Virus record (IMG/VR): IMGVR_UViG_3300009149_003671
Coordinates: 1 to 25,260 of that record
Reading direction: 5' to 3' (one strand)
From: a virus
DNA: 25,260 bases
Part shown: positions 321 through 22,808 of the stretch, piece after piece
Position numbering within the stretch: position 1 is the stretch's first letter
Layout of the letters: each line of letters begins with the position of its first letter
Notes under the pieces: model-generated
What the model saw: only the letters and a program-made list of their open reading frames with translations
What the model was told of the DNA's origin: nothing
Database searches by the model: none
Position numbers and translations under genes: made by a program

Positions 321-1998
321 CTAGTTGTCGCCCAGCGTAAACCTTCTACCGGTACCGGACAAGTTCCCAACGCCATTGTTTCGCCGCCCGGCCTGAGAAA
401 GCTCTCGCATGAGACCCTTCATTTCGCGGACGTTCCTAGCCATGGCCTGATCCTCTCGGAGGATCTCAGAGACCTTATTGTGTAGGACCTTCGAGTCCTT
501 CTTCGAGATCTTACCGTGATCCCGACCCTCTTCTCGAAGGAGTTTGGCCAAGTAGCCGGACTCTCCGAGTGCGGCCTTCTCCGACTGCACCTCCGAAGAG
601 CGCTGCTCCTTCACCTTCATGACGTCCGCGTCGGTGAAGCCGAAGACCTCCTTGAGGACCCACTCCAAGGACACGAACTCACGCATGCGGCTGGCGAAGT
701 CAGCACGCGCGTTCGCCACCTCGAGCTGAGCCAGCTCATACACGCCGCTCGGAACCGTGAGGTAGATCTCGTGGTAGACGGTCGCTGGGTCGATCTCCAT
801 TGCGGATAGGTGGACCCGCGCAATGTGACGTAGGCCGCGACGTACCTCACGCTGCACCCGGAGGATCGAACGCGCGAACTGCACGTCCACGTTCGAGAGG
901 ATCGAGCCTGACTTGTCTGCGTCAGCACCCAGGTACTGCTTCGGGACCTTGAGGGCGGAGTACATCTTCTTGAGGAAGTACTCGACGATCTCCATGGAGT
1001 CCCAGGTCGGCTGAGCCAGGGTGTCGATCCTGGTCCGCTCCGCCTCTCTGCTGATCGGAATGTAAATGTTCTCGTCCGGCCCCATGGGGTTGAACCGTAG
1101 GTCCACGTTCCCCGTCTGGCTGTTCAGGAACTTCCGCTTCGAGAACTGCTTCTTGACCTCGTTCAGGTAGCGGAACGCCTCACGCGGGGGACGCTGGCCG
1201 GTGTCCACGTAGATAGCGAGACGGCCCGGGGCTCTGGTCAGGAAGTGCTGCATGGAGGCCCTCCAGCATGACCAACCGCTTCCAGATCCAGCGAGCGGGC
1301 TCCAGCACGGAGTAGCCGTACTTGGTGCCTCGGTTCACCGACTGGAGGCGCATGTGCATGACCTCCCAGTCGTCGTAGAGCACGGTCCCGTCGAACGACC
1401 TCTTCCCCGAGTCCATGAGGGACTTGAACTCGTTGGGCTGGATATTCACCGTGCCGGTCTGGTCGTAGTAGAAGCCGAGCAGCCCCTCCGCCGGATCGTC
1501 AACACGACGGGTGGCGGCGGGTGAGAGGTACTCCAGTCCGATCACGCCACGGTCGGTGACGAGGAGCTCGTTGTACTCGTTGCCCATTTTGCAGAGCCCG
1601 CGGGTCATGGGCCAAATGTGGTCCTTGATCTCGAGGTTCCCGTAGAAGCATTCGTCGAGGAGCTTCTTGACCTGCTCGTCGTCTGCTTCGATCTCTACGG
1701 TCCTGCCGTCCTGGATATCCGGCTGGGTTGCGTCGTCAGCCCAAATGTCCAGAACCGAGGCGAGCTCTGGATACTGCTCCATGTGCTCGTAGTCGACGTA
1801 ACGGGCCAGCAGGCTCTGATCCGTTCGGAGGGCCTCCCCCACTCCCTCGAGACCTGTGCCGGTAGCCATGCCGGCACGAGTAAAGGCCCCGGAGCCGCGC
1901 GTTGCGATCCGGGGCCTTCTGGCCTCCCGACGCTCGTCCCGCTTACGCGAGAAGACGGCGTCAATGAAGCTCTGTGCTCTGCCTGAGATTTTTGCCAT
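321..1998 (-). CDS. T4 gp20-like portal vertex protein, reading frame broken near 1255-1265
   Basis: The portal forms the dodecameric head vertex through which DNA is packaged. The first frame runs from ATG 1998 to about 1260 and carries the gp20-like opening YVDYEHMEQYPELASVLDIW, then DDATQPD and a VLEPARWIWKRLVMLEG helix. The second frame runs from about 1262 to the stop at 321 and continues the family with FLTRAPGRLAIYVDTG, EVKKQFSKRKFLN and ALKVPKQYLGAD. The two must be read together for a full portal of about 560 residues; T4 gp20 has 524. Deleting one G from the GGG after CTGGA would join them as MLEASMQHFLTRAP. The gene could be truly split: the second frame has an ATG at 1253 behind GGAGGG. 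Ribosome binding at 1998 is weak. The C-terminus is Lys/Arg/Gly-rich. Confidence 0.85.
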
Positions 1999-2376: not shown

Positions 2377-2892
2377 TCAGCCGCCGCTGCTCATGGCCGC
2401 GCCACGCATGCTGTGCTTGAGCTGAGAGATCTTCTGTCCGCGAATGATATCGCGGCGGCGGTTGTCGTTCTTCTTCCGCTTCTGACGACGGCCACCGCCG
2501 TAGCGCTTCGCCTTGCGGGACGCCTGCTGCTTCTGCTTGTGGCGAAGCTGGGCCTGCATGCCGGGGGTGGTCTTGTCGCCGCTGGAAGCCTGAGCTCGAC
2601 GACGAAGGGCGGACTTGCTGGCCTCGAGAATGAGGAGCTCAGCGAGGTCTTCGAGAAGATCGGTGATTGAGTGGGTCATGTCCTCATTCCAGGACTCGGC
2701 CAGGTCGATCTCCACGGTATCTCCGTGAATCGTAGCCTTCGTGACGAACTTCAGCTTCTTCGCGGCACGAGCGAACTTCTTAGCTGAGGACGCAGTGTCG
2801 AATCCCCAAGAGGACCCCTCTTCCGTGTCCTCGCCGCCAAAGTCGCTGGCCAGCTCGTCGAGCTCTGCCCGGATCTTGTAAAGTGAACCCAT
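2377..2892 (-). CDS. Probable prohead core/internal protein: acidic N-half, LILE cleavage-like site, basic tail
   Basis: ATG 2892 is chosen because AAGGAGG lies 8 bases upstream; the frame stays open further upstream but crosses the promoter and palindrome. The product is 171 residues. The first 80 are acidic and mixed. About residues 82-95 (ITDLLEDLAELLILEASKS) form an amphipathic helix with I-L-E before A, matching the (L/I)-x-E site of T4-type prohead proteases. The rest is rich in Lys, Arg and Gln, with KRYGGGRRQKRKKNDNRRR. The layout (acidic helix, cleavage site, basic DNA-binding-like tail) is shared with 7516-8157 and 8795-9073. No family is recognised; a processed head core protein is an inference. 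Confidence 0.75.
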   Translation of the reverse strand: MGSLYKIRAELDELASDFGGEDTEEGSSWGFDTASSAKKFARAAKKLKFVTKATIHGDTVEIDLAESWNEDMTHSITDLLEDLAELLILEASKSALRRRAQASSGDKTTPGMQAQLRHKQKQQASRKAKRYGGGRRQKRKKNDNRRRDIIRGQKISQLKHSMRGAAMSSGG

Positions 2893-2917
2893 AGGGACGG
2901 CCTCCTTGCCTGGTGGG

Positions 2918-2945
2918 ATTCTAGCGAACAGGCTTCGCCGTGCAA
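2918..2945 (-). promoter_or_regulatory. Candidate promoter overlapping palindrome copy 2
   Basis: On the minus strand TTGCAC (2940-2945, right half of the palindrome) is followed after 16 bases by TAGAAT (2918-2923). A transcript from here would start just ahead of the AAGGAGG of the gene at 2892. The overlap of -35 and palindrome suggests repression or activation by a palindrome-binding protein. Confidence 0.5.
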
Positions 2946-2955
2946 TCGGATTGCA
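2941..2955. repeat. 15-bp palindrome copy 2 (perfect)
   Basis: TGCAATC-G-GATTGCA, perfect 7-1-7. It lies two bases beyond the stop codon of the gene ending at 2958 and about 48 bases before ATG 2892. Confidence 0.85.
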
Positions 2956-2957
2956 TG

Positions 2958-3437
2958 CTACCGAAAAGCACCGGCCCACGTCTTCCCCAAGACGGCGACA
3001 GCGATAACCCGCCTACGGTGCTTCTCCGCCTGGTGCTTTGCTCCTTGCCGGCCACTGGTGAGCCTGTCCAGAGAATCCCTATCTACCGCCAGAGTCGTGG
3101 CGGATAGAGCCAAACACTGCTGGAAGATAGAGAATCTTGTCGAGGCTTCGGGGACCTCGGGCAGCCCGACCACAATCTGATCCACAACAGACTCGGTCCA
3201 GACCGCGTGGGCTTCACGTCCGTAGTCCTCAAGCGTCTTCGACTCCTTGGCCAGGGAGAGCTCGAGCTGCTGGCTGTGGTGCGCCGCCAACAGCTTCGCC
3301 CGCCGGATCGCTTCGTACAGCAAGAAGCCCGCCGGGTCTTTCAGCCGACGGGCCTGCTGCTTCTGTTCTTCTGCCCACTCCTCGCCGTCTACTCCGATCA
3401 CGGACCTGTAGACGTGGTCGAAAAGGGAGCCGGACAC
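2958..3437 (-). CDS. Hypothetical helical protein
   Basis: A 159-residue frame begins at GTG 3437, directly after the stop of the gene at 3440; there is no better start and the ribosome-binding site is weak. The protein is mostly helical and charged, with EEWAEEQKQQARRLKDPAGFLLYEAI near residue 20 and a basic C-terminal part (RQGAKHQAEKHRRR). No signal peptide, membrane segment or known motif is visible. It is the last gene of its block, and palindrome copy 2 follows its stop. I do not recognise it; a virion or assembly role is suggested only by the neighbours. Confidence 0.7.
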   Translation of the reverse strand: MSGSLFDHVYRSVIGVDGEEWAEEQKQQARRLKDPAGFLLYEAIRRAKLLAAHHSQQLELSLAKESKTLEDYGREAHAVWTESVVDQIVVGLPEVPEASTRFSIFQQCLALSATTLAVDRDSLDRLTSGRQGAKHQAEKHRRRVIAVAVLGKTWAGAFR

Positions 3438-3439
3438 GA

Positions 3440-3754
3440 CTACCGACGGACGACGCGACGCCCGCCCCGCTTAGCGGCACGAAGCCTGGATCCTGCCGCC
3501 CTCACCGCGGGACGCTTGTTGACGCCCCCAATGGTGGACTGATTTCGGTTCGGTGCAGTAGCACTTGTGCGAAGCCGTGTCCCTCCCGCCGCTCGCCGCG
3601 CGGCACCTTGAGTCCTGGCACGAGTACGCGCCTGGGCGAGCTTGCCATGAACGGCACGTCGAGGGCTTATGCCTGCGGCACGAGCCATGCGACCTGCCCC
3701 GACGCGTTCGTCGAGGAGGCCGTCAAGCCGCTCAAATAGGCCGGTGACGTTCAC
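3440..3754 (-). CDS. Small Arg-rich basic protein with short helical leader
   Basis: The frame is open from further upstream, but that part overlaps the beta-rich gene at 3757-4125. I place the start at GTG 3754, giving a 104-residue protein that opens NVTGLFERLDGLLDERVG and then becomes Arg/Ala/Gly-rich to the end. ATG 3688 is an alternative start. Neither has a strong ribosome-binding site. The leader LFERLDGLLDE resembles those of the genes at 4392, 7516 and 8795, and ends in L-D-E, close to the (L/I)-x-E cleavage rule. A DNA-binding internal head protein is inferred from composition and architecture, not from homology. Confidence 0.6.
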   Translation of the reverse strand: MNVTGLFERLDGLLDERVGAGRMARAAGISPRRAVHGKLAQARTRARTQGAARRAAGGTRLRTSATAPNRNQSTIGGVNKRPAVRAAGSRLRAAKRGGRRVVRR

Positions 3755-3756
3755 GG

Positions 3757-4125
3757 TTAGCTGCCGGCAATGATCACGTCGAGGGTGATCGGCTCCGCCC
3801 CGGTGGTAATGAACAGCGCAGTGATCGCGCCACCGATCACCGTGGGCTTGTCGATCGCGATAGAGGTGCTGGTGTTGTTCTCGAACTTGACCTGCACCAC
3901 AGGACACGTGTTGACGTCGGGTCCTGGGTTCAGGTAGATCGCCTTGGCGGTGGTCACACCCCCGAAGCTGATCGGCTCGTCGGTCAGGTTCGCGTCAATG
4001 ATCTGGAGGAGCTGCGTAACCTCCGCGACCGTGATCGACCAGTCGATCTTCTTGGCCGTCTCCTTGTTCTTGCCGGTGCTATCGAAGATAGCGAACTCTC
4101 CGGTGAACTTAACGATCTTGCTCAT
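3757..4125 (-). CDS. Small beta-rich virion-like protein
   Basis: ATG 4125 opens a 122-residue protein that ends TLDVIIAGS. Its sequence alternates hydrophobic and Thr/Asn residues (ISFGGVTTAKAIYLNP, VVQVKFENNTSTSIAID), as expected for a beta-sandwich. No export signal or catalytic motif is present. Proteins of this kind in phage structural blocks are often head decoration or tail proteins, and it lies between two basic or zinc-binding small proteins. The family is not recognised, so a structural role is an inference. Confidence 0.75.
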   Translation of the reverse strand: MSKIVKFTGEFAIFDSTGKNKETAKKIDWSITVAEVTQLLQIIDANLTDEPISFGGVTTAKAIYLNPGPDVNTCPVVQVKFENNTSTSIAIDKPTVIGGAITALFITTGAEPITLDVIIAGS

Positions 4126-4128
4126 GGG

Positions 4129-4395
4129 TTAGTCCTCTCCCAGGTAGTCGGTGCCGGAGCCCTCGAACGTCGTAGATTTGACGGCGAGAGCTTCCTTGTT
4201 CTTGCGGGCCATGGCTATCACCACGGACTCGTTGAGTTCTAGGGTCCACCAGCAGTGACAGCACCTACGGCACTTCCTGCGGCGACGGACTACATTTCCC
4301 CTGAACGGCCAGAAGGCACCGAGCCGGGTCTCGGCGACGCCACAGTCCTCAGATCCACAATGTCCGCAGACTCTGGTTCCGTATTCGTCGCTCAC
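4129..4395 (-). CDS. Stand-alone NrdR-like zinc-ribbon protein
   Basis: An 88-residue protein starts at GTG 4395, overlapping the previous stop by four bases (GTGA), which implies translational coupling. Residues 10-52 read C-G-H-C-G-S-E-D-C, then ETR, then VVRRRRKCRRCCHCWWTLEL. This follows the N-terminal zinc ribbon of NrdR repressors (CPxCGSED...DSR...RRRRECxxCxxRFTTxE), with zinc ligands likely Cys10, Cys13, Cys42 and Cys45. The ATP-cone domain that normally follows in NrdR is absent; the last 35 residues are short and unrelated. It probably binds DNA or a protein partner. Control of ribonucleotide reductase genes cannot be claimed from the ribbon alone. Confidence 0.75.
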   Translation of the reverse strand: MSDEYGTRVCGHCGSEDCGVAETRLGAFWPFRGNVVRRRRKCRRCCHCWWTLELNESVVIAMARKNKEALAVKSTTFEGSGTDYLGED

Positions 4396-4631
4396 TTTGG
4401 ACCAAGCCTTCTTCCCTCGTAGCCCAGAGCGTCCAGCTTACGCTTGGCCCTGCCCTGCTCCAACCGTCTCTTGTTCTTGCGCTTCCGAACCTTCCGGGAG
4501 CGGAGCTTCTTCTCCATGCCGAAACCGAGTCGCCTACGGGCACGACGGTGAAGGTTCTTCTGGAAACCATGCGACCGACTCACCTGCTGGGTGATTCGGT
4601 CAAGGTCCTCTAGTAGCTCTCTCAACGTCAT
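4392..4631 (-). CDS. Small basic protein with amphipathic leader
   Basis: ATG 4631 begins a 79-residue protein, first in its minus-strand block. Residues 1-17 (MTLRELLEDLDRITQQV) form an acidic amphipathic helix. From about residue 25 to the end it is very basic (RRARRRLGFGMEKKLRSRK and KRKNKRRLEQ). The leader resembles those of 7516-8157 (MLLDLLEDLNDLV) and 8795-9073 (MIHEILEELAVLV). It ends in a 4-base overlap with the zinc-ribbon gene. A nucleic-acid-binding internal head protein is the likeliest reading, but this rests on architecture only. Confidence 0.7.
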   Translation of the reverse strand: MTLRELLEDLDRITQQVSRSHGFQKNLHRRARRRLGFGMEKKLRSRKVRKRKNKRRLEQGRAKRKLDALGYEGRRLGPK

Positions 4632-4687
4632 GTGGTGCCTAGCCGTCTCCTCGAAATAGCTACCTCGGCAGTATACACTCTGCCCCC
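4632..4687. promoter_or_regulatory. 56-bp divergent promoter region with a shared TATAC box
   Basis: This gap separates ATG 4631 (minus) from ATG 4688 (plus). GTATAC at 4671-4676 is self-complementary. On the minus strand it reads TATACT, a near-perfect -10; on the plus strand it reads TATACA/TACACT. No good -35 is visible on either side. The plus-strand start point would fall at or near the ATG, and the bases before it (TGCCCCC) hold no ribosome-binding site, so a leaderless message is likely. Confidence 0.5.
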
Positions 4688-5542
4688 ATGAGCCCTACCT
4701 TGCCTAGATCCAGGGTGCATTGGCGCGCTGAGACCCTCCTGACCCCCGCCCAACGCGACGCGACCGTTGAGCTCGTCGAGAAGGTCGTCCGTCTCCCTGA
4801 GTCTCAGACGTGGGGAAAGGAGCTAGGCCCACACGCGATCTTCACCCGCACTGTGCTCGCTACGGTTCCCGGGGCGGATCACGAGTTCTCCACGGATCAC
4901 GACCGGGTAGTGATCAAAGTCAGCAAGGGATCGGCGGACGACACCATTGCCTTCCAACAACGAATTATCGAGGAACCTCCCGCCGCCTGGGGGGAGTGCC
5001 GGTTCCAGCAGACGCTCCGCGCTGGGCACCTTGACGACGGGTCAGCCTACAAGGTGCTCGACTACGTTCCCGGTGCGACGCTCGAGCCCTATCTAGCGAA
5101 CCGAGAGACACCCCTGTCTGCTGAGGTGGCCTCGTCGATCCTCCGGCAGCTCTTCGGCGACGTGCTGATCCCGTGGTGGGACGCTGGGTTCCGGTTCGCG
5201 GACTTTCGCCAGGCGAACTGGATCTACGAGGAGAGCACCGACACCCTCACCATGATCGACACCGACGGTCTTCGTCCTGGAATGGAGGGAGCCCTGCGCG
5301 GAGACCAAGAGGTGCTTCAGTCTCTGGAGTCGATCGCCGTGTCCAGGTTCCCTGGGCTGATCCTCGCTGTAATGACCGCGAGGACGCCTTCACTCACGAA
5401 GTCCGTTGCCGGGTCGCGAGTGAAGAACGCCCTCGAGAAGAGCAAGTTCATTGAGCGAATGACTGCCTTGGGTACGCCCAAGGGGTCACGCGTGAAGGTC
5501 GAGCAGAGCCTCAAGAAGCTGCTGCTCTGGCTGCGCCTCTAA
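4688..5542 (+). CDS. Phage protein with protein-kinase-like fold
   Basis: This is the only long plus-strand gene inside the minus-strand structural block. The 284-residue product shows a kinase-fold core: DRVVIKVSKGS (Lys77, ATP-binding lysine position), the hinge YKVLDYVPGATLEPYL (121-136), the catalytic loop ADFRQANW (Asp172, Asn177) and the metal-binding MIDTDG (Asp191-Gly194) in place of DFG. It resembles small-molecule or atypical protein kinases more than classical Ser/Thr kinases. No membrane segment is present. It has its own probable promoter and ends three bases from the convergent gene at 5546. A host-modifying or virion-modifying kinase inserted as an independently expressed gene is my inference; the substrate is unknown. 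Confidence 0.75.
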   Translation: MSPTLPRSRVHWRAETLLTPAQRDATVELVEKVVRLPESQTWGKELGPHAIFTRTVLATVPGADHEFSTDHDRVVIKVSKGSADDTIAFQQRIIEEPPAAWGECRFQQTLRAGHLDDGSAYKVLDYVPGATLEPYLANRETPLSAEVASSILRQLFGDVLIPWWDAGFRFADFRQANWIYEESTDTLTMIDTDGLRPGMEGALRGDQEVLQSLESIAVSRFPGLILAVMTARTPSLTKSVAGSRVKNALEKSKFIERMTALGTPKGSRVKVEQSLKKLLLWLRL

Positions 5543-5545
5543 GGG

Positions 5546-7513
5546 CTACGCAACCCCGAACGGGTCGGCCAAGAGGTCCTTGGTCTTCCGCTTGGACATG
5601 CCGCCGACGCCGACGCTCTTTCCGAGATCCTTGAGAGCCGCGCTGACCGAGAGGGCCCCCGACTTACTCGCCAAAGGAGCCTCGGGCTCGTCACCGAGCT
5701 CCCAGAAGTCCAGACTGGTGGTGGTCCGGGCGGGGAACATGTGCTTCTCAGCCCAGCCAGGAACCGTGGACTCCATGCCGAAGTCTTCGCGGATCGCGAA
5801 GAACTGGGCCATAACGGCGTAACGAATGTCCTTGCTGACCTTGTAGCGGCGCAGGTAGCCGTTCATGGCCGTCTTGGCCCGCTGGATCGTCTTCGTCACA
5901 TCGTTGTCGCCGGCCTTGTGCTTCATGATCGCGACGAGCTTCTTCTTGACCGAAGCGCCGCCACGCTTGCCCCCGCCCAGCTCGCTCTGGGTCTGGTCGA
6001 TCAGCCGCTGCATGGCCTCAACTCGCTGACGAGCTCGCTTCCTCATGACCCGCTTGTTCTGCGACTTCAGGAAGCTCACCTTGGGCCGGTCCTCCATGAC
6101 GTAGTCGTCGTCCTCGGTGGTGATCTCCATGCCGCCGTCGACCTCGCCGTAGATATCGCCAAGGCTCTCGGCGACTCCCATGGCGACACTCGCGTAGGCC
6201 AGAATGTCCTCGCGGGCCTGGTGCCGGTAGTAGGGGTCCTGGCGTTCGACGTTGAGCTCCTCAGCGAGCTGGATCATGAGGCCCTCGAGCTCCGAAGCCG
6301 CCTCACGGTCGTTCGGGTTCTGCGAGAGCTCCTCCAGCGCGACGTGGATCGGTTCCAGGGCCTCCTCGTCGAAGAACATGGGCAGGTCCGCCAGAATGTG
6401 GCGGACGGACTCGATCTGGCTACGGATAGTCCGCCGTCCTTCGTTGGGCTGTGAGATCTTCTCCATGGTGGGTCGCCCAGCCTGTGGGTTGTAGGAACCC
6501 TCGGACAGAAGTCCTCGGAGGTCAGAAACGATACCTCCGAGCTCGTCGTGGTCTTCCAGTTGCACGGTGGCCTTACTCCCTTTGAACCTACTCATAATGA
6601 TCTCCGCTCGCTTGCGAATGGCGCTAGACCAACGATTGAGTTCAGCGTCAAATTGGTCTCGTGTTTCCAGAACAGCCTTCACCCACTCGCCGAGTTGGCG
6701 CTCAGGCATGGCCCCTTGTGTTTTGGTCGCCCTGTCGGCTGCCACGATCAAACGGCCAGCCTCAAGGCTGTGGGTCGCGACCTGGTCGATCAGGTCCTTC
6801 GCCACGTCAGGAAGCTGTCCGGCCATAGCCGAAATGCTCTCCAGCAGGCTACGAATGGGGTCGTTAGCGACCCTCTTGTCGTAGGCAGCCTTCTCGGCCC
6901 CTCGACGCTTCTTGCCGTATTTGGCAGAGCCGACCGTAGCGTTGAAATCCCGCTTGAACTCCTTGGACCGCTGCCCGCCGTCGGTCATCCACGGCGGGTT
7001 GCGATTCATGGCGATCTGCTTGAGCGCCTTCGAGACGTTTCGGAAGTTCTTGTTCGCACCGAAGCCACTCTTCTCGACTTGGTGCGCGAGCTTCAAGAGC
7101 CTCTCGGCAGCCTCCCTAGAGAGGTGCTCCTCGCCGAAGGCCGTGTTCGCGATCACAGCCACTTCCGCCTGGAGCTTCTCAGCCTGGCGAAGGTAACGGG
7201 TCCGAATGTAGGAGGCGGTCTTCTCCAAGGTCTCGTTGGCGTGACCCAACATGCCTCGTATGGTCCCTCCGAAAACGTAGGGATCCTCCCGACCAGGAGG
7301 CCGGCGGGGCTCCTTGGGCTTGGCCTTCTTCTGGTCAGCGAGGTTCTTCTCTCGCTGCTCCGGCGTGACGACAGGCTTCCGACGACGGCCTTCGTGGAGG
7401 AGGTTGGTCCGTTCGATCACCTTCTCGTCGAGGTCCACCTCGTCGAACCACTCGATCATGGTGTCGAGTTCGGCCCTTCCGTAGGGCATGTAAGGAGGGT
7501 CAACGTGCTTCAT
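5546..7513 (-). CDS. Large helical, basic virion-associated protein
   Basis: ATG 7513 is chosen because it lies two bases after the preceding stop (TAGCTATG) with GGAG upstream. The 655-residue protein is nearly all helical and charged, with long heptad-like stretches (for example EEALEPIHVALEELSQNPNDREA and KRVMRKRARQRVEAMQRLIDQ) and no membrane segment. The N-terminus, MKHVDPPYMPYG, faintly recalls the M-x-H-R-T-P-P leader of the cargo proteins, and NLLHEGRRR at about residue 37 offers an L-H-E cleavage-like site. I do not recognise a family. A large internal or scaffold protein of the head is plausible from location and composition. Confidence 0.75.
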   Translation of the reverse strand: MKHVDPPYMPYGRAELDTMIEWFDEVDLDEKVIERTNLLHEGRRRKPVVTPEQREKNLADQKKAKPKEPRRPPGREDPYVFGGTIRGMLGHANETLEKTASYIRTRYLRQAEKLQAEVAVIANTAFGEEHLSREAAERLLKLAHQVEKSGFGANKNFRNVSKALKQIAMNRNPPWMTDGGQRSKEFKRDFNATVGSAKYGKKRRGAEKAAYDKRVANDPIRSLLESISAMAGQLPDVAKDLIDQVATHSLEAGRLIVAADRATKTQGAMPERQLGEWVKAVLETRDQFDAELNRWSSAIRKRAEIIMSRFKGSKATVQLEDHDELGGIVSDLRGLLSEGSYNPQAGRPTMEKISQPNEGRRTIRSQIESVRHILADLPMFFDEEALEPIHVALEELSQNPNDREAASELEGLMIQLAEELNVERQDPYYRHQAREDILAYASVAMGVAESLGDIYGEVDGGMEITTEDDDYVMEDRPKVSFLKSQNKRVMRKRARQRVEAMQRLIDQTQSELGGGKRGGASVKKKLVAIMKHKAGDNDVTKTIQRAKTAMNGYLRRYKVSKDIRYAVMAQFFAIREDFGMESTVPGWAEKHMFPARTTTSLDFWELGDEPEAPLASKSGALSVSAALKDLGKSVGVGGMSKRKTKDLLADPFGVA

Positions 7514-7515
7514 AG

Positions 7516-8157
7516 CTACCGGGCTCCGACTCGTCTGCCGGTGTTCATGGACGAACGTCCTCGAAGCCGGGGCCGGGCCCGAACCCTGCCACGGCTGCCG
7601 GTGTTCTTGGCCCGTAGACGGTTGGCCGCACGTCCCGTGCGCTTCGCAACGCTGGGGCTGGTCTGCCTGCCTCGAGCGTTGGACTGAGAACGATTCGCCG
7701 AGTTCTTCACCTTCTGCTTGGGAGCGTTCTGACGAAGCTGATCGCGACGACGCGAGGACCGGGCCCCCTTGGCCTGCCACGCCCGACCATAAGCCTTCTT
7801 CTTCTCCTTCTTGTGGAACTGCTTGGTCTTCATGCGACCGAGGCGCTTCTTGGCGGCACCACGCTTGCCGACACGCTGATCGACAGCCTTCTTGGCCGCC
7901 CGGTAGTCGCCGGCAACCCTCCCGGCTGCCTTCTTGACCCTCCCGGCTGCCTTCTTGAGCGCGCTGAAGATACCCTCGAGGAGTTCTTCCTCACCGAGGC
8001 TCTCCGCGTGCTCGATCAGCAACGAGAGGAGAACCTCGTCCTCAAGGAGCTCCTCGTCGTCTTCGTCGAGACCGAACTCAAGAAGGTCCTCGTACAGCGC
8101 CGCAACCCCGTCTTCCGTGACGAGGTCATTCAGATCTTCGAGAAGGTCAAGCAGCAT
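7516..8157 (-). CDS. Bipartite acidic-leader/basic-tail internal head protein candidate
   Basis: ATG 8157 has CGGAG seven to eight bases upstream and palindrome copy 3 just before that. The 213-residue protein has an extremely acidic, Leu-rich N-terminal 65 residues (MLLDLLEDLNDLV, LEFGLDEDDEELLEDE), with several (L/I)-x-E sites including LLIEHAES and EEELLEGIFS. From about residue 70 it becomes protamine-like: KKAAGRVKKAAGRV, then Lys/Arg/Ala/Gly to the end. Cleavage after LLE-G would release the basic part. Known T4-type internal proteins are cut in this manner. The role in DNA condensation inside the head is inferred. Confidence 0.75.
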   Translation of the reverse strand: MLLDLLEDLNDLVTEDGVAALYEDLLEFGLDEDDEELLEDEVLLSLLIEHAESLGEEELLEGIFSALKKAAGRVKKAAGRVAGDYRAAKKAVDQRVGKRGAAKKRLGRMKTKQFHKKEKKKAYGRAWQAKGARSSRRRDQLRQNAPKQKVKNSANRSQSNARGRQTSPSVAKRTGRAANRLRAKNTGSRGRVRARPRLRGRSSMNTGRRVGAR

Positions 8158-8168
8158 GCTGGTCTCCG

Positions 8169-8183
8169 TGCAATCGGGTTGCA
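8169..8183. repeat. 15-bp palindrome copy 3 (one mismatch)
   Basis: TGCAATC-G-GGTTGCA, one mismatch from symmetry. It abuts the stop codon (8184-8186) of the upstream gene and ends 11 bases before ATG 8157, next to its ribosome-binding site. Confidence 0.85.
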
Positions 8184-8792
8184 TTAGGGCGCAACGAAGA
8201 GTTCCGTGGTGCTCATGCGGACCCTGGTGATCCCGCAGTTGTTCGGGCTGTAGATCCCGACCTGGAGCGAGCTACGGGACCGGTTCTGGACGAACAGGTA
8301 GTGCCGGTAAGGCACGACCGGGTCGGTGTTGGGGGCCAACGGAGCGATCTCACGCCGTTGCTCTCCGGGCTGGAGCGCCGGTCGGTTCGAGGGTGTGACC
8401 TTGTAGAGAGTCAGGCCAGCCGCCGAGACGCCGTTCCACGGGTCGAACAGGAGGAGCTTCGTGGCCGGCGTGCCCCCGTCGAAGATATCGACGACGCCGA
8501 GGACCTTGCCGTCAGCGAGGGAAACGATATCCCCGACCACGAGCTCCGTGTCGAACGACGTTCCAGCTCCAACGAGGGTCTGGTCGCCGTTCGCCAGGGT
8601 CACCGTGCCTGTCAGCGCGGTAGCCGCCAGGTCGTCGGCTGCCCGGTTGGGACCGTCGCCCGTGGCAATTCGGTAAATGAGCGGCCCGCCGCCCATGTTC
8701 TTCAGGTAGACGACGTAATCAGGGTCGACCCGTTCCAGGAACAGAGTGACCGAGACACCTGGGCCGACGATTTGGCTGTGGTCGAAGCTCAT
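8184..8792 (-). CDS. Beta-rich phage structural protein
   Basis: ATG 8792 follows the previous stop by two bases. The 202-residue product is beta-rich. Residues about 60-125 contain GTVTLANGDQTLVGAGTSFD, then VVGDIVSLADGKVLGVV and a LLLFDPWNG strand. This pattern (GTV...VxGxGTSF...GDxI) recurs in phage tail and head accessory proteins. The C-terminus HYLFVQNRSRSSLQVGIYSPNN also looks like a surface beta domain. There is no signal peptide and no catalytic motif. A decoration, neck or tail-fibre-associated role is possible; the family assignment is not firm. Confidence 0.75.
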   Translation of the reverse strand: MSFDHSQIVGPGVSVTLFLERVDPDYVVYLKNMGGGPLIYRIATGDGPNRAADDLAATALTGTVTLANGDQTLVGAGTSFDTELVVGDIVSLADGKVLGVVDIFDGGTPATKLLLFDPWNGVSAAGLTLYKVTPSNRPALQPGEQRREIAPLAPNTDPVVPYRHYLFVQNRSRSSLQVGIYSPNNCGITRVRMSTTELFVAP

Positions 8793-8794
8793 GG

Positions 8795-9073
8795 CTAACC
8801 TTGCTGCCGCGCTGCCGCGTTTCTCCGGCGACTACGCTGTGCCCGCTGTGCCCCACCACGATTGGCAGCGTGCTGGGCCACCTTCCGACGCCGAGGATCG
8901 ACGGCGGTGCCCCTGGATCCGATCACCTTGCCTGCCCCTCGTGCCTGAGCAGCAGCCCTGGCCGGGCTCGGACGCATGGCCCGTGTCCTGGCCGCCCTAC
9001 GTGCCGCTCCTTGGGAAAGCGGGCGACCTCGCTCAACGAGAACGGCAAGCTCTTCAAGAATCTCGTGAATCAT
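8795..9073 (-). CDS. Protamine-like small protein with cleavable leader
   Basis: ATG 9073 has GGGAGAG upstream and lies 9 bases after the terminase stop. The 92-residue protein opens MIHEILEELAVLVERGRP, an amphipathic helix ending L-V-E, and then is almost only Arg, Ala, Gly and Gln. The leader EELAVLVE is nearly the same as EELAFLVE in the gene at 18082, which otherwise encodes an unrelated protein. That points to a shared targeting and cleavage function, as with T4 prohead cargo. The basic remainder would bind DNA. No database family is recognised. Confidence 0.75.
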   Translation of the reverse strand: MIHEILEELAVLVERGRPLSQGAARRAARTRAMRPSPARAAAQARGAGKVIGSRGTAVDPRRRKVAQHAANRGGAQRAQRSRRRNAAARQQG

Positions 9074-9082: not shown

Positions 9083-12000
9083 CTACAGGAACGCAGGCAT
9101 TTCAAAGTCGTCGTCAGGCGTGGTTCCGAACTGACGAGGACTCTCGTCGCCCCAGAGAATACTACCCGAAGCACCTGCCTGCCCGCTAGAAGACCCTTGA
9201 CTGGCAGAGACAGGTTCGTCCGACGTGACCGGAGGTGGAGGGCTGTATTCAAAGGGAGGGTGCTCGAGCCAGTGGGTGTAGGCGCAGCACGCAGCGTCGG
9301 CCACGTCCTTGAACCCGTTCGGTGGGTGGTCCACCCTGTTCGTCTTGTGGTTCTTCTGGAGCTCTCGAAGCTCCTTGAGGAGGGGTGGGTAGTCGTACAT
9401 CAGGACCCGGCCCTCGTAGATCCCTTGCTTGAATAGCTCGTAGGGTCCTGGGTTGTGGCAGGACCTGATCTCGCACTCGTAGCCCTCACGCTCGAGGGAC
9501 TGCTTCAGACCGACGTATTGCCAGCGGTCCATGCTGACCGAGCGAATGGGCACGCCGAGCTTGGTGAGCATCATGACCAGGGACACCAGGTTGTCCTGAA
9601 GGATCTCGCCGTCACGGGGAGGCACGATCCTCAGGGTCACGTCGAAGCGGACCATGTGGACCTGCTTCTTGAAGACCTGGAGGCCCTCTCGACGCTCTAC
9701 GATCTTCGCCCCGCAAACATGGCTGACCACGAAGCCGGTGTTGCAACTGTTCAGGCTCGCGTCGATATGGGCGTGCCGACTAGCGTGAGGGCAACAAAGT
9801 GGCTTCCTGGCGCTCATGTTGACCAGAGCTCCCCAGATCCCACGGTAGGGGGTTCCACTCTCGTAATCGTAAAGCTGGAACGGGTGAATGAACGCCGGGT
9901 CCACCATGGCCTGGAGCTTCTCCCGCTGCGTAATGAACGGCTCCACGACGACCGTGGCGAAGCCGGCGTCGTCACGAATGGCCGACTCAATGTCAGCCTC
10001 GAAGTCAGACCTGTAGTCCTCCGGGATCTCGATCACCCGGCAGCCTTCCGGCATGGCCTCGACGTCCTCGCCGACGTGCATGATCCGGGACCTGTGAACC
10101 TCGTTGCCGACAAAGACCTTGAACGTCTCCGCGGAGTAGTTCGAGCGGTTCACGTCCCACGTCGAGTATTCCCGGTAGAACACGTGAGGGTCAGACAGAG
10201 CCTGGCGGACCCGCTTCTCGGTGAAGTCCTCCTTGGTCCTCTTCGACGAGACGATCACGAGCTTGCCGGGAAGCCGTCCCGCGCTCAGGAAGCGCGACTT
10301 CATGCGTCGGATAATGTTGTTGTAGAGGGCCGTTGGCTTGTCGGCTTCACCTTCTACGGTCGCGGAGTTCTTCTCTGAGACCATGAAGTTGGCCTCGTCC
10401 ATGATCCCGCCGAAGGCGTTGGTTCCGATAATGTTCGACGAGCTAGCGGTGCCCCCAAGGATATGGACGTTCTTCGGGAACGTGATCCCGGCCTGAATGT
10501 CCTTGTAGCCCATGCGAATGAAGAACGGGGAGAGCTTCAGCTTGCTGCCAATGCTGTCGAAGACGACCTCCTTGGCCACCTTCTCGTTGATCGACACGTT
10601 GACGAAGTGAATCTTCGAGCCCGGTCCGAGACCGTAGGCTTGAGCCGGGTCCCGCAGGCAGAGGCACTCGTAGACCATGCGTATCACGATCAGCGTCGCC
10701 AGGTACGTGTTGTGGAGAACGATCCCATTACCCACGAAGTTCTTCGTTGCCGGAACGGACAGATCGTACACAGGCTGAACGCCGGTACTCTCGATCGAAT
10801 TGACCTGCTCCCAGACCAGATCGTTACTAGACAGCCAGGCGTACTTGCCGGAGTAGGACTCCTCCTCACAGAGCCTCTCGAACTTCTCCCTGGATAGGTT
10901 CTGGCTACGCGGACAGCGCCAACGCTTCATGAAGCCGGGCTGTTGCTTCGCGGGAAGCTCGTCCCGGATCTCCTTGAGCTGGTCGTAGGAGACTGGCACC
11001 ACGTCGGTATTCGGGTTCGACTTGGTGCGGAGGCACTCGTCATATAGAGCGCGGCAGGCGTCTTCCTTGTCCCCCAGGAAGAATCCAACCTCGTCGAAGA
11101 ACCGCACGATGTTCTTGGAGCCGGTGACCGAGAGGGTCCAGGCGTCGAAGACGTGCTTCCTGCCATCCGGTCCTCGATAGTGCTTCTTCTTGGGGACCTT
11201 CCTGGAGAGGACTCCGAGCCGCAAGAGCATGAATCTCAGGTCTTCGATCAGACCGTTGCTGGCGAGGGTGACCTCGACCTTCCTGGGCTGCTTGACGGAG
11301 ACAGACCCGTCACAGGACAGGAAGCGGTTCAGGAACAATGCAATCTGATTGCACGGGAGACCGTAGAACTGGGCCGGCGCACGCTTGAGCTTGGAGAGGG
11401 TGTCCATGCCCCACCTGCGAACGAACGGTCGAAGACCAAGCAGGTTCATTTGCCGGGTCTTCCCTGCCATTCTCGACCAGCCAACACCCGTCTTTCCGAC
11501 GCTTGAGTCCTCTGGATTACCGACTATCTCTGCGAGACGGACCACCTCCTTCAGGATCGTCACGTCTGCCTTGGTAAAGGTAGTGTGCTGGGTGCAGCCG
11601 CCGTCTGCCGCCAAGAAGGCAACAAGAGCCACCTCGTCGTCGGTGATCTCGAGCGGCTTGCTCGGGCCGGGAACCCTGCGCGGGCAGGCCACCAGGTCCT
11701 TGATCTTGAGCTGGTCGGCCTCGACCCAGCCCTGCGTCGTGTAGACCTTGTGATCGGTGGACAGCTCGATCTGCTGACCAGCGGCGAGGGTCAACCTGAC
11801 GCACGGCTTCTGACCTGACTCGAACGCCGTAGCCTGCTGCTCAGAGAACGTCCCAGACGGCTCCAGCATGGACAGCGTTGCGAACCCCTCAGACCGTCGA
11901 GTCAGTGCTCCAACGGTCGACCTAGATCCGTCGCAAACCACTTCTGTATCAGGACTTATGCACTTCCCCCACCCGATTGCCCCGCCAAGAATCGCCTCGT

Positions 12001-12304
12001 GATAGTCCCCGGCGAATAGCTCCTCGAGGTCTCCCATGAGGGTCGGGTAAACGCTGACCGCCTTGCCCATGTAGTAGGGGTTCTCGAAGAACTCCCTGAC
12101 CGAGACAGGCTCACGCTCGTAGTGGAGCTCGTGGGTGACCTTGAGGAGCTCTGACCTCCCGGTCGTGTCCATTTCCTCGATCGCCGACAGGATCAGCCGC
12201 TGCTGAGCCGGGGTCATTCTCCCCCAGTCGTCCTTCAGGCTCTCCTGCACCTCGTCCTTGGTGAGGAAGCTCTGGTAGCGACCGTGGTGATTGTTCCTGA
12301 TCAC
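9083..12304 (-). CDS. terL: Terminase large subunit (packaging ATPase/nuclease) interrupted by an intein
   Basis: The packaging motor pumps DNA into the prohead and cuts it. The start is set at GTG 12304, which overlaps the upstream stop as GTGA; GTG 12340 in the same frame is an alternative. Of 1073 residues, 418 are an intein inserted after the Walker A lysine (GGAIGWGK, residues 107-114), so the extein has about 655 residues. After the intein come TYLATLIVIRM, the Walker B-like AFGGIMDEANFM, and an RNase H-like nuclease domain with likely acidic residues in HAHIDASLN, VSMDRWQYVG and FKDVADAACCAY. The C-terminal tail is Ser/Gly/Pro-rich. The ATPase cannot work until the intein is removed. 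Confidence 0.93.
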   Translation of the reverse strand: MIRNNHHGRYQSFLTKDEVQESLKDDWGRMTPAQQRLILSAIEEMDTTGRSELLKVTHELHYEREPVSVREFFENPYYMGKAVSVYPTLMGDLEELFAGDYHEAILGGAIGWGKCISPDTEVVCDGSRSTVGALTRRSEGFATLSMLEPSGTFSEQQATAFESGQKPCVRLTLAAGQQIELSTDHKVYTTQGWVEADQLKIKDLVACPRRVPGPSKPLEITDDEVALVAFLAADGGCTQHTTFTKADVTILKEVVRLAEIVGNPEDSSVGKTGVGWSRMAGKTRQMNLLGLRPFVRRWGMDTLSKLKRAPAQFYGLPCNQIALFLNRFLSCDGSVSVKQPRKVEVTLASNGLIEDLRFMLLRLGVLSRKVPKKKHYRGPDGRKHVFDAWTLSVTGSKNIVRFFDEVGFFLGDKEDACRALYDECLRTKSNPNTDVVPVSYDQLKEIRDELPAKQQPGFMKRWRCPRSQNLSREKFERLCEEESYSGKYAWLSSNDLVWEQVNSIESTGVQPVYDLSVPATKNFVGNGIVLHNTYLATLIVIRMVYECLCLRDPAQAYGLGPGSKIHFVNVSINEKVAKEVVFDSIGSKLKLSPFFIRMGYKDIQAGITFPKNVHILGGTASSSNIIGTNAFGGIMDEANFMVSEKNSATVEGEADKPTALYNNIIRRMKSRFLSAGRLPGKLVIVSSKRTKEDFTEKRVRQALSDPHVFYREYSTWDVNRSNYSAETFKVFVGNEVHRSRIMHVGEDVEAMPEGCRVIEIPEDYRSDFEADIESAIRDDAGFATVVVEPFITQREKLQAMVDPAFIHPFQLYDYESGTPYRGIWGALVNMSARKPLCCPHASRHAHIDASLNSCNTGFVVSHVCGAKIVERREGLQVFKKQVHMVRFDVTLRIVPPRDGEILQDNLVSLVMMLTKLGVPIRSVSMDRWQYVGLKQSLEREGYECEIRSCHNPGPYELFKQGIYEGRVLMYDYPPLLKELRELQKNHKTNRVDHPPNGFKDVADAACCAYTHWLEHPPFEYSPPPPVTSDEPVSASQGSSSGQAGASGSILWGDESPRQFGTTPDDDFEMPAFL
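10709..11962 (-). mobile_element. Intein with LAGLIDADG-type homing endonuclease in the terminase Walker A motif
   Basis: The 418-residue element begins with Cys (CISPDTEVVCDG) and ends VGNGIVLHN, followed by Thr of the extein. These are the standard splicing residues (Cys1, terminal His-Asn, Thr +1). Block B is visible as LSTDHKVYTTQGW, and block F as VYDLSVPATKNFVGNG. Two LAGLIDADG-like motifs, LVAFLAADGG and FLNRFLSCDGSV, mark a homing endonuclease that could spread the intein to empty terminase alleles. The P-loop is a frequent insertion target in phage terminases and other ATPases. All splicing residues look intact, so the intein is probably active. Confidence 0.9.
11339..11353. repeat. 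15-bp palindrome copy 4 (perfect), inside the intein
   Basis: TGCAATC-T-GATTGCA, perfect 7-1-7. It encodes Cys-Asn-Gln-Ile-Ala just before the second LAGLIDADG motif of the intein endonuclease. It is the only copy within a coding region. Confidence 0.85.
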
Positions 12305-12612
12305 GCGAGACGGGCCCTCGCCTTGTGGAGGGAGGTCCACAACCTAGCAACGAGGCGCTCCTGGGGATCGTCTAGGCTCTCCTTGCTGAGAATCTTCACG
12401 ACCTGGATCGCCCGATCGTAGTGCTTCCGATTTCCGAAGGACTTCTTCTTGGTGTCCACGAGCTCGAGGAGATCAAGAATGTCCTCGGCGTACACGTCAC
12501 GGATTCCGATAAGCGAGGCGACGAGGAACCGACCGTAAAACTCGATCTGAAACCAAGGGTTCTCCTTGGGCTTCAGATTGAGGTCTAGCTTCTTCGGCTC
12601 CTTGAGCTTCAC
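12301..12612 (-). CDS. Small hypothetical protein upstream of terminase
   Basis: GTG 12612 directly follows the nuclease stop, with GGAGG about ten bases upstream. The 103-residue protein is basic, with KLKEPKKLDLNLKPKENPW at the N-terminus, a hydrophobic helix (FYGRFLVASLIGIRDVY) and an Arg-rich end (LVARLWTSLHKARARLA). It overlaps the terminase start by four bases. Small terminase subunits often sit here, but I see no recognisable DNA-binding helix-turn-helix and the protein is short for that role, so I leave it unnamed. Confidence 0.75.
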   Translation of the reverse strand: MKLKEPKKLDLNLKPKENPWFQIEFYGRFLVASLIGIRDVYAEDILDLLELVDTKKKSFGNRKHYDRAIQVVKILSKESLDDPQERLVARLWTSLHKARARLA

Positions 12613-13014: not shown

Positions 13015-14523
13015 TTACCTGGTGGGGAGCTCGTCCCGAACGAAGTCGCTCCGAAGGTACTTCCGCATGATCTTGAGTTGCTGCCGTGCTCCGCCGATCC
13101 CGCGCTTGCCAGTCTCGTCTTCCAGAGACGCGGTCAGCCACTTGATCGCCTTCTCCGTCGGCACGTAGAGCTTACGCTCCAGGTCCTCGTGCCGCAGGTG
13201 GATCCCGCCGTCACAGCAGGTGTCTCCTTCTACGAACTCGTCGTGGAGGACCTCGAGGGTGCCCTTGAGCTTGCCGAGCCGCTCGAGGGCTAGCTCCGGG
13301 TTCCGCTCGAAGATCCTCCAGACGTTCTTCACACGTAGGTCAATCGCCCGGAGCTTGTCGTGGTGGACCTTCACGACGCCTTGGCTGTAGTGCTCGAGCA
13401 GCACAGGTCGCGCACGATTCATAGACTCCGCCTTCACCAGCTCGAACGGACCGTCGTCTTTCCAAACCTCACGGAGCGCGTCCTCCATGGTCCCTTTCCG
13501 CTCTCTGTGTCCCCAGGGCTCCATTTTCCGGTCGAACTCGCTGATCTGAATAGGGTGGGTGCTCTTATTCGGTCTGGAGCTTCGGTGGACGACGTAGTTG
13601 TTCACGTTTGCTCGGCTACTCTTGAGCCTCACGTGGACGGTCTTCTTGCCCCGGGCCTTCTTCAGGACCGGCGATAGGTCCTTCGCCATAATGGCCGCCC
13701 GCTTCAAGGACCCAAAGTCGAAATCGTCAGTCCAAGGGGACTTCAACCTACCAGCCGCTGCGTGCTCTTCCCCGGCCCTGACGCCGGCCTCGACCCACCT
13801 AAGAACCTCCTGCGGGCTGATCTTCCCCGCTTCAAGGTCGTCCTCAAGATCACCGGTAGCGACCCACACGGCTGTGTCGTCGGCCTTAGCGAATACGTCC
13901 CAGAACTTCTTAGAGATCTTCGCCTCCGTGAGCATGAGATCGGGAGGGGTGCGGTGCTCGAGCTGCACCTTCCAGATCTTGGGCCGAATGCCTTTGGCCC
14001 TCGCGGCCATGAGCCTCGTGTTCCCTCCGATCAGGTAGGGGGGCTTGTCCTTTCTGAAGAGCACCACAGGTGCGGGCATGTTCCCGCCCTTGTCCAGTCC
14101 GGCTTCGACCCTGCTGATATCTCGTTCGTACTCCTTGGCCAGGTCGCGGGCCTTCTCGGGCGTGTCCGTCTCCCAGGAGTCGGTGTTCTCCATGCCCTCC
14201 CAGTCCTTGTCGGAGAGTTTGGACACGCCCCCCTTCTTGGCAGCGTGCTTGAGCTTCCTGGGGTCCACGCCGAGCTCCTCGGCAGTCCGCTCGATCTCTC
14301 CCATTTCGTCGCCGAGATCGGGCTTCCTCCACTTGGGCTGACGTTTGGGCGCAGCTCCCTTCTTGCTGAACGTCCGGCCCCCGGCCTGCGCCTCGCCCCC
14401 TTTGGGAATGAACACGGTCCTGCCCTGAATGTTCACGTAGTTGCCGGGATTGCCGGCCTGGTAGTCCGTATCGTCGAACGGACCGGTTTCCATGAGGAGG
14501 TGGGGAGGAGTGCGGTGGGTCAT
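13015..14523 (-). CDS. Cargo-type protein with ParB-like domain and a second, internal targeting peptide
   Basis: ATG 14523 lies two bases after the previous stop, with GGAG upstream. The 502-residue protein begins MTHRTPPHLLMETG, the shared leader with L-M-E cleavage site. Residues 148-187 (MPAPVVLFRKDKPPYLIGG, then NTRLMAARAKGIRPKIW) match the ParB/sulfiredoxin-like fold, whose GGxxR loop binds nucleotide. Immediately after, at residues 189-200, EHRTPPDLMLTE repeats the leader, followed by Ala. The remaining 300 residues are helical and basic with a Cys-Cys pair (GDTCCDGG). The simplest explanation is fusion of two cargo genes that kept both peptides. A packaged nuclease or DNA-binding effector is inferred. 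Confidence 0.8.
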   Translation of the reverse strand: MTHRTPPHLLMETGPFDDTDYQAGNPGNYVNIQGRTVFIPKGGEAQAGGRTFSKKGAAPKRQPKWRKPDLGDEMGEIERTAEELGVDPRKLKHAAKKGGVSKLSDKDWEGMENTDSWETDTPEKARDLAKEYERDISRVEAGLDKGGNMPAPVVLFRKDKPPYLIGGNTRLMAARAKGIRPKIWKVQLEHRTPPDLMLTEAKISKKFWDVFAKADDTAVWVATGDLEDDLEAGKISPQEVLRWVEAGVRAGEEHAAAGRLKSPWTDDFDFGSLKRAAIMAKDLSPVLKKARGKKTVHVRLKSSRANVNNYVVHRSSRPNKSTHPIQISEFDRKMEPWGHRERKGTMEDALREVWKDDGPFELVKAESMNRARPVLLEHYSQGVVKVHHDKLRAIDLRVKNVWRIFERNPELALERLGKLKGTLEVLHDEFVEGDTCCDGGIHLRHEDLERKLYVPTEKAIKWLTASLEDETGKRGIGGARQQLKIMRKYLRSDFVRDELPTR

Positions 14524-14525
14524 AG

Positions 14526-15038
14526 CTACTCCGGATCCGGTGGGAACTTGGGAACACGAAGGGCCAGACGGAGCTTGTAGGTGGAGGTGGCGATCTCGTC
14601 CGTCCACTTGGCGATCACCTTCTTGTTGGTGGCACCGAGAGCGCCGTCGAGAGACTCCATGAGCCCGGTCACGTGATCGAACCTACGACGCTGTCGGCTG
14701 TTCACGTCACGGATCTTCTCGGCGTCTCGGAGCTTGAAGCGCTTGGTGAAGTAGCGCCTGCCGATCTTGACGTATTTGAGAGCCGTCTCCTCGTCGTCCG
14801 GGTGGATCTCATGAGTGAAGAACGCGTTCACGAGAGCCTCCTTACCGTGCCACGGTTCCCAGTCGGCCATTCGCTCGGCCCCAGCCCCGGGACGCTCCTT
14901 CTTTGAGGGACGCTCGCCGAAGGAGTAGAGGTTGAGGAGATCGTCGAGCCGAGCTCGAATGACGACGAGCGCCTTCCTTGCTGCGCTCTTGTCGATCTCC
15001 GCCTCCATGAGGAGGTGAGGGGGTGTGCGGTGGGTCAT
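14526..15038 (-). CDS. Cargo-type helical protein with MTHRTPPHLLMEA leader
   Basis: ATG 15038 overlaps the upstream stop (ATGA) and has AAGGAG upstream. The 170-residue protein begins MTHRTPPHLLMEAEID; ten of its first twelve residues form the shared leader, identical with that of the next gene. Cleavage would fall after L-M-E, before Ala. The remainder is helical and charged, with KALVVIRARLDDLLNLYSF, then a GERPSKKERPG linker and a basic helical C-terminal half (RRYFTKRFKLRDAEKIRD). No enzyme motif is seen. It is probably a virion-internal protein. Confidence 0.82.
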   Translation of the reverse strand: MTHRTPPHLLMEAEIDKSAARKALVVIRARLDDLLNLYSFGERPSKKERPGAGAERMADWEPWHGKEALVNAFFTHEIHPDDEETALKYVKIGRRYFTKRFKLRDAEKIRDVNSRQRRRFDHVTGLMESLDGALGATNKKVIAKWTDEIATSTYKLRLALRVPKFPPDPE

Positions 15039-15568
15039 GCCTCGACTCCTTCCACGCTGTCGAACTTCCAACGGAACCACAACGTGGACTCGACGTCCCA
15101 GCCGTAGAGGTCAGGCTCCCCCATGGGGACCATTCTGGTGGCGTTCTGTCCGCGTTCCGTCAGGTGCATGGCGTCGTAGTCCTTGCTCATGGCCTCGAAG
15201 TCAAGCACCTCCTCACCCACGCGCGTCTGGTGCTGGTACACGGACATGAGCTTCTTCAGGTCGGACAAGGAATCGACGATAGCCACCTTCGCGGCCTTCG
15301 GGTGAAGGATCCACGCCTCCCCTCGGGACAGCACCATGGAGGAGCCAGCCCAGGCGCTACCTCCCTCGTGGTAGGTGCTCGTCCAGAGGCCGCCGGTCGG
15401 CTTCACGTACCTGTTCTTGACGGGGGTGAACTTGGATCGAGACGGCTTCGCTCCCATGAACAACTGGGCAGGGGCCTTGACCTTCCCGCCCTTGAGTCGG
15501 GGAAGCATGCGTCGGTTCTCCGCTTCGCAGCAGAGATCGTGAAGAACACCTAGCAGCCCCTCGATCAC
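15035..15568 (-). CDS. GLWTS/WDVES-type phage protein with a leader ending in CCE
   Basis: GTG 15568 follows AGGGGG and lies 8 bases after the previous stop. The 177-residue protein has KPTGGLWTS (56-64), VLDFEAMSKDYDAMHL (121-136) and YGWDVESTLWFRW (155-167). The order GLWxS ... (D/E)A..KDYD ... WDVES recalls small uncharacterised proteins of phages and actinobacteria, which I know only as hypothetical; the layout is somewhat reminiscent of ADP-ribosyltransferase-like folds. The N-terminus MIEGLLGVLHDLCCEAEN is an amphipathic leader ending in Glu-Ala, similar in kind to those at 18082 and 8795. Function is unproven. Confidence 0.75.
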   Translation of the reverse strand: MIEGLLGVLHDLCCEAENRRMLPRLKGGKVKAPAQLFMGAKPSRSKFTPVKNRYVKPTGGLWTSTYHEGGSAWAGSSMVLSRGEAWILHPKAAKVAIVDSLSDLKKLMSVYQHQTRVGEEVLDFEAMSKDYDAMHLTERGQNATRMVPMGEPDLYGWDVESTLWFRWKFDSVEGVEA

Positions 15569-15576
15569 AGGACCCC

Positions 15577-16977: not shown

Positions 16978-17068
16978 GTGCTTCTCCTGGGAACGGGTGC
17001 TGGCAGTCTACCGGATCTGGCCCTGCGCCTCACGTAAGGGTTCAGTATCACGGTAGAGAGCCCTAGCG

Positions 17069-17083
17069 TGCAATCGGGTTGCA
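17069..17083. repeat. 15-bp palindrome copy 5 (one mismatch)
   Basis: TGCAATC-G-GGTTGCA. It lies 23 bases beyond the stop of the capsid-like gene and 91 bases before ATG 16977. As read on the minus strand, TTGCAC from its right half is followed after 17-18 bases by TGATACT, a fair -10. Confidence 0.85.
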
Positions 17084-17106
17084 CAGCGAAGCGCCCGTGC
17101 GGGTCA

Positions 17107-18015: not shown

Positions 18016-18081
18016 GGGACTACACTCCTTGCGTGGGTTGGGAGGGCAGCTTACCAGCCGAGGGCTGGACCTGATCATTTG

Positions 18082-18855: not shown

Positions 18856-18872
18856 GGTCGCAGAGGTCCTCG

Positions 18873-19310: not shown

Positions 19311-19336
19311 TCGGTGCTCCTGTGCTCGTGACGACC

Positions 19337-19366
19337 AGTGTAGTGGGGGGAGGGGCCCTCTTGCAA
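19337..19366 (-). promoter_or_regulatory. Candidate promoter overlapping palindrome copy 6
   Basis: On the minus strand TTGCAA (19361-19366) is followed after 18 bases by TACACT (19337-19342). It would serve the gene at 19310, whose ATG is 26 bases further on. As at 2918-2945, the palindrome supplies the -35 half. Confidence 0.5.
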
Positions 19367-19376
19367 TCGGGTTGCA
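19362..19376. repeat. 15-bp palindrome copy 6 (one mismatch)
   Basis: TGCAATC-G-GGTTGCA, identical with copies 3 and 5. It lies 51 bases before ATG 19310 and at the border of the long stretch without genes. Confidence 0.85.
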
Positions 19377-19423
19377 GCGTAGCCGCATGCTCGTGGTGAC
19401 CCGGTCGGTGCTCGCTACAAGGG

Positions 19424-20303: not shown

Positions 20304-20306
20304 GCC

Positions 20307-20840: not shown

Positions 20841-20849
20841 ATCTGTGCC

Positions 20850-22327: not shown

Positions 22328-22329
22328 GC

Positions 22330-22806: not shown

Positions 22807-22808
22807 GG

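Follow-up and report, generated by a model that had tools for sequence, protein, structure and literature searches.

The portal-terminase interval of the window

The window, that is, the whole stretch of DNA analyzed here (25,260 bases, 61.6% GC), constitutes the IMG/VR record IMGVR_UViG_3300009149_003671, and its head genes form a compact operon on the minus strand. Proteins are named below by their lower coordinate, and a slash marks the junction between a leader or helix and what follows it.

321 to 1998, minus strand: T4-type portal (PF07230, E = 2.5e-36), downstream border of the cargo interval
2377 to 2892, minus strand: 171 aa; ~70-aa N-terminal region, internal helix SITDLLEDLAELLILE/ASKS, tail of 81 aa, net +22
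3440 to 3754, minus strand: probable gene, 104 aa from GTG; MNVTGLFERLDGLLDE/RVG, then an Arg/Ala-rich tail of 88 aa, net +25, devoid of Asp and Glu
4392 to 4631, minus strand: 79 aa; MTLRELLEDLDRI helix, then a tail of 66 aa, net +22
7516 to 8157, minus strand: 213 aa; leader-like MLLDLLEDLNDLVTE, acidic domain, basic tail of 152 aa, net +48
8795 to 9073, minus strand: probable gene, 92 aa; leader MIHEILEELAVLVE/RGRP, then an Arg/Ala-rich tail of 78 aa, net +21
9083 to 12340, minus strand: intein-bearing large terminase, which bounds the cargo interval on its upstream side
13015 to 24257, minus strand: nine proteins with leaders of a first class, e.g., MTHRTPPHLLME, MHRTPPAYLCE, and MTHRAPPHILIE
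15035 to 15568, minus strand: 177 aa, starting MIEGLLGVLHDLCCE/AEN
18082 to 18855, minus strand: 257 aa; leader MTFIRTVLEELAFLVE/AKN (16 residues), site LVE/A

Several other features of the window were recorded. The portal is split over two overlapping frames (1180-1253), which may reflect a sequencing error, a broken gene, or a frameshift; it occupies one frame in relatives. The terminase intein contains a LAGLIDADG domain, and the clade member L183, which matches the terminase over its full length, may on the strength of that match have the intein in common. Upstream of the terminase, the product of 17107-18078 matches 14 clade loci and, weakly, the T4 major capsid protein Gp23 (E = 4e-5, slightly short of the Pfam cutoff); it may be a divergent capsid protein or a relative of one. 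The sole likely plus-strand gene of its stretch, 4688-5542, was judged by eye to resemble a protein-kinase-like fold. In addition, the near-palindrome TGCAAyCCGATTGCA (≤2 mismatches) occurs at eight sites (304, 2941, 8169, 11339, 17069, 19362, 20307, and 24985) versus 0.12 expected, mostly directly upstream of genes, and is a possible operator or promoter element; a shorter form lies immediately upstream of L176:8430, in the syntenic relative described next.

Megablast of the window against 50,697 phage records returned no near relative, and searches by portal or 5546 peptide patterns found no close one. The nearest cultured portals, those of Flavobacterium phage immuto and Microcystis phage Mel-JY01, are ~30 to 33% identical, and the only relative among genome contigs was a MAG contig of a bacterium. 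The gene order of the window recurs in L176, which comes from a 19-kb contig of 52% GC, as terminase, homologues of 8184 (36%), 4129 (52%), and 3757 (34%), and portal, with a partial homologue of 5546. Its terminase-portal interval encodes three basic helix-bearing proteins of 319 aa (+38), 294 aa (+28, TQLLERLSDLLE/MAKRK), and 61 aa (+10, RLVSILE/ASRK). Since terminase and portal lie near each other in most other clade members, we regard this interval as an island of variable cargo. The helix and tail of 2377 are weakly similar to the C terminus of the 319-aa protein (L176:5900-6859; P = 0.012), whose counterpart of the helix lacks the site Glu, which speaks against reading all such helices as cleaved leaders. 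Protein 7516 was also considered as a relative of L176:5900-6859, and the match was no better than shuffles.

Acidic helices and basic tails

The five tails carry a net charge of +21 to +48 (+0.27 to +0.33 per residue), with 0 to 4 acidic residues and 8 to 20% hydrophobic residues. All of them exceed dinucleotide shuffles of their own DNA in basicity (P ≤ 0.01), and +0.15 charge per residue is reached by 1.7% of 413 genes from related phages. The five proteins gave no informative match in HMM libraries, phmmer searches with the leader-bearing proteins against 20,246 ORFs from the retrieved loci gave no solid homologue, and a fold search with a single-sequence model of 2377 gave no match at E ≤ 0.001.

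The original prediction assigned to each of the five a short, acidic, Leu-rich N-terminal helix joined at an (L/I)xE site to a basic remainder. The order of helix, then basic tail was recovered in 8795, 3440, 7516, and 4392, but the helix of 2377 lies within the protein (residues ~72 to 90), because the likely start is ATG 2892, behind AAGGAGG. The starts of 2377 and 3440 were assigned from ribosome-binding sites and gene spacing, that of 3440 being most likely GTG 3754, 2 bases past the upstream stop. As for the site, it is present in 8795 (LVE/R, after a leader of 14 residues), 3440 (LDE/R, after 16 residues if GTG 3754 is the start), 2377 (ILE/A), and 7516, as well as in 18082, but not in 4392, whose junction reads DRITQQV. 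The letters quoted for the leaders of 8795, 4392, and 7516 (MLLDLLEDLNDLV in the last) were verified on the minus strand. In 7516, the tail is preceded by a whole acidic domain, which spans 61 residues, has a net charge of −24, and ends LLE/GIF (at residue 61), and is more than a short leader; the single-sequence structure model of this protein is helical throughout. Arg at P1', as in 8795 and 3440, is unusual, and the MHRTPPGLLCE/R leader of the relative G001 (see below) has it too.

Outside the interval, 18082 bears an acidic leader on a body with a mildly basic tail and a weak KOW match. The 15035 product is a possible further member of the class, its site, CCE, falling outside the (L/I)xE pattern. 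The N-terminal match between 8795 and 18082 scored 40, compared with a mean maximum of 25 and a highest value of 41 in 300 shuffles, which bears out the near-equality noted at the outset for the leaders of these unrelated proteins. Moreover, the pattern L..L..L(L).E was found in 4 of 29 N termini, compared with 2.6% of windows within protein bodies (P = 0.014 by shuffling). In amphipathicity, the helices of 4392, 7516, and 2377 clearly surpassed shuffles, and those of 8795, 3440, and 18082 did so weakly.

Two leader classes in the window and its relatives

The codon pattern of LEELAxLVE was searched in 2.9 million viral contigs, blind to kinship. Among the 34 stretches found, two were N-terminal leaders, LEELAELVE/G close to a protein start in G009 and MKQLLEELAELVE/A in G010, and both lie on contigs of ~153 kb encoding T4-type portals 47% identical to that of the window. 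G009 and G010 are close sisters, with a median identity of 94% between orthologous proteins, and are therefore counted as one observation. Apart from the portal, the bodies of the window proteins were unmatched in G009 and G010, except for a basic stretch of 7516 (E = 0.001).

Gene calls for G010 were made independently of the leaders, and further leaders were found there (MSTMDELLEGIRREAGLVE/A, MSQNLIESIRSQAGLSE/A, MNILEDIRSAAGLTE/S, and MEIKDRLQSAVDQVNE/A), which align to one another chiefly over their N-terminal residues. A site at residues 10 to 22 occurs in 10 of 45 late genes and in 6 of 120 others (P = 0.002), and the leader-bearing late proteins are more basic than the remaining late proteins (P = 0.0015). 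Some G010 proteins also contain leader-like stretches inside, such as EADLVEDVRQAAGLIE/A, in parallel to the internal helix of 2377. Leaders MSLSKLAEDLVALVE/Y and MKFSRLGRMLVE/A were found in G004, which had been fetched via its portal rather than a leader. The likeness of the leaders exceeds chance, and in G010 they are associated with late basic proteins. In these sequences, the leader behaves as a portable tag that stays in place while the cargo is exchanged. Across all portal-flanking loci, the enrichment of N-terminal sites is weak, and for this reason the use of such leaders is not claimed for every clade member.

In G001 (IMGVR_UViG_3300009149_000093, 41 kb, with GC as in the window), MTNVSEALSSLAVLTE/R is carried by a 491-aa protein (+35). 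This contig also has eight sites of the near-palindrome TGCAAyCCGATTGCA and the leader MHRTPPGLLCE, and probably represents a further portion of this phage or of a sister phage. The latter leader is the tenth case of the first class, HRTPPxLLxE, whose members end in or close to LLxE. No HRTPP leaders were found in G004, G009, or G010, and an HRTPP codon scan gave, apart from G001, three matches, none with a start codon adjoining the motif. One HRTPP-leader protein, that of 13015-14523, shows a ParB-like motif by eye (YLIGGNTRLMAARA); against Pfam, it had no match at E ≤ 0.1.

The acidic helices were proposed at the outset to be a second class of targeting leader, and the sequence comparison is favorable to this view: HRTPPxLLxE was confined to the window and G001 among the sequences compared, while acidic-helix leaders were seen in every relative examined in detail. 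Loss of the leader likeness among relatives, named in advance as the refuting outcome, was looked for and did not occur. A targeting role is likewise supported by the occurrence of the leader on unrelated proteins, its recovery in related phages by a kinship-blind scan, the late and basic nature of its bearers, and the presence of a protease of the matching type, a Peptidase_S77 (gp21-type) adjoining the portal in G010, L009, and L176. In two of these relatives, Gp23 is likewise found just downstream of the portal, and for the protease and Gp23 alike the corresponding place would fall beyond the end of the window.

Probable capsid targeting, its alternatives, and implications

We consider it probable (roughly 0.6) that the acidic, Leu-rich helices represent capsid-targeting propeptides like those of T4. 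Each helix would dock the protein that carries it on the prohead scaffold core, and a gp21-type protease would then cut after (L/I)xE wherever the site exists. Cleavage would strip off the acidic part, and the strongly basic tails would remain in the head on the packaged DNA and perhaps be injected along with it, as the T4 system suggests. The 4392 product would be targeted and left uncut.

The T4 capsid-targeting sequence (CTS) comprises 10 to 19 residues, of which residues 4 and 7 govern targeting and residues 8 and 10 govern cleavage; when residue 10 is Asp, targeting persists and processing is blocked (PMC9026906), a targeted-but-uncut case to which 4392 may be analogous. T4 internal proteins are basic and DNA binding, with ~300 copies each (PMC9026906); they vary widely across phages, the CTS alone being conserved, and their lysines touch the packaged DNA (PMC3012670). 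Because T4 internal proteins are already known to be basic, CTS tagged, and DNA binding, the window system looks like a variant of the T4 kind. As with IPI, IPII, IPIII, and Alt, whose CTS is cut by gp21, a short N-terminal leader is common to unrelated proteins (PMC9026906, PMC3012670), an (L/I)xE-type site lies near residues 10 to 19 in several of them, the cargo is basic and turns over rapidly, and a T4-type portal is accompanied, in relatives, by an S77 protease and Gp23. In contrast to the T4 proteins, the window leader is a longer, acidic Leu helix, in one case internal, the tails of the cargo proteins have a much stronger positive charge and are probably disordered, and a second, dissimilar leader (HRTPPxLLxE) is used alongside. 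Giant phages offer another parallel, in that diverged inner head proteins have similar N termini, with prohead-protease cleavage known or inferred, and gp53 and gp54 of SPN3US share an identical 15-residue N terminus; however, most of these propeptides are much longer (several >100 residues), and they favor other sites (AxE and SxE) (PMC5694885).

The window leaders are candidate T4-type capsid-targeting sequences that fit a strict definition in part. An N-terminal position and a length of ~10 to 19 residues are found in 8795, 18082, and 3440 (if GTG 3754 is the start) but not in 2377, with 7516 and 4392 ambiguous in this respect, and one leader is carried by unrelated bodies (8795 and 18082; the G010 leaders). 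The tails are strongly basic with few acidic or hydrophobic residues, like protamines or T4 internal proteins. Protamines are short, Arg-rich proteins with few acidic or hydrophobic residues, and the window tails resemble them in composition, with no homology expected; the protamine-like label is thus one of composition, and both DNA binding and DNA condensation by the tails are putative. A bolder scheme, in which two head-loading codes are divided by cargo, HRTPPxLLxE serving mostly folded proteins and the acidic helix both serving protamine-like proteins and masking their tails until prohead cleavage frees DNA-condensing peptides before packaging, is speculative and probably does not hold as stated.

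The basic tails could instead be early-acting effectors, packaged and injected like T4 IPI and having no DNA-condensing role in the head. T4 internal proteins are diverse, with nothing but the CTS to unite them, and one of them, IPI, inhibits a restriction enzyme of the host (PMC3012670), a precedent with which the rapid turnover of cargo among relatives agrees; however, the tails of 8795, 3440, and 7516 are almost without hydrophobic residues for folding, and we regard this possibility as doubtful. It has the targeting step in common with capsid targeting by T4-type propeptides and differs in end use only.

A less likely alternative is that the acidic helices stay on their proteins for good, as segments that dock or mask charge in assembly proteins of a core, scaffold-like, or DNA-binding type, with (L/I)xE a by-product of a Leu/Glu-rich helix. 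Such segments would suit 4392, with its siteless junction, the entire acidic domain of 7516, and 2377, whose helix is internal and whose weak L176 relative retains the helix and not the Glu. However, LVE, LTE, and LSE recur at residues 13 to 19 in G010 and G004, in many late proteins that are unrelated to each other, and docking by itself would not require this.

Coding potential bears on the two Arg/Ala-rich proteins. Codon bias of the coding type is evident in 2377, 4392, 7516, and 18082, while no frame of 8795 or 3440 has the phage codon bias, and their third-position GC is ~0.6 versus 0.70 to 0.83. On the other hand, 8795 fills the gap between the terminase stop and the 8184 start, leaving 9 and 2 bases to its neighbors, 3440 fills its operon gap with 2 and 2 bases to spare, and both tails are more highly charged than shuffled DNA (P = 0.0025 for 8795 and 0.005 for 3440). 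Owing to this exact filling of gaps and the tail charge, both are probably genes of atypical composition. That they are instead chance Arg/Ala-rich frames, which arise readily in DNA of 62% GC, as the missing synonymous-codon signal and the lack of an 8795 counterpart in L176 might suggest, is the least likely alternative; it would make the match of the 8795 leader to that of 18082 a coincidence, and it is inapplicable to 2377, 4392, 7516, and 18082.

For capsid targeting by T4-type propeptides, what would be new is that a single phage has two leaders unlike each other, of which the acidic one is borne by short, Arg-rich peptides. If this reading is true, T4 tag-and-cut loading extends across a broad clade of T4-type phages that are uncultured, and the leaders would provide a sequence rule for finding packaged or injected proteins in metagenomes, as well as new packaging tags. 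Moreover, these phages would represent a case where protamine-like peptides derived from acidic-basic precursors may aid the packing of viral DNA.
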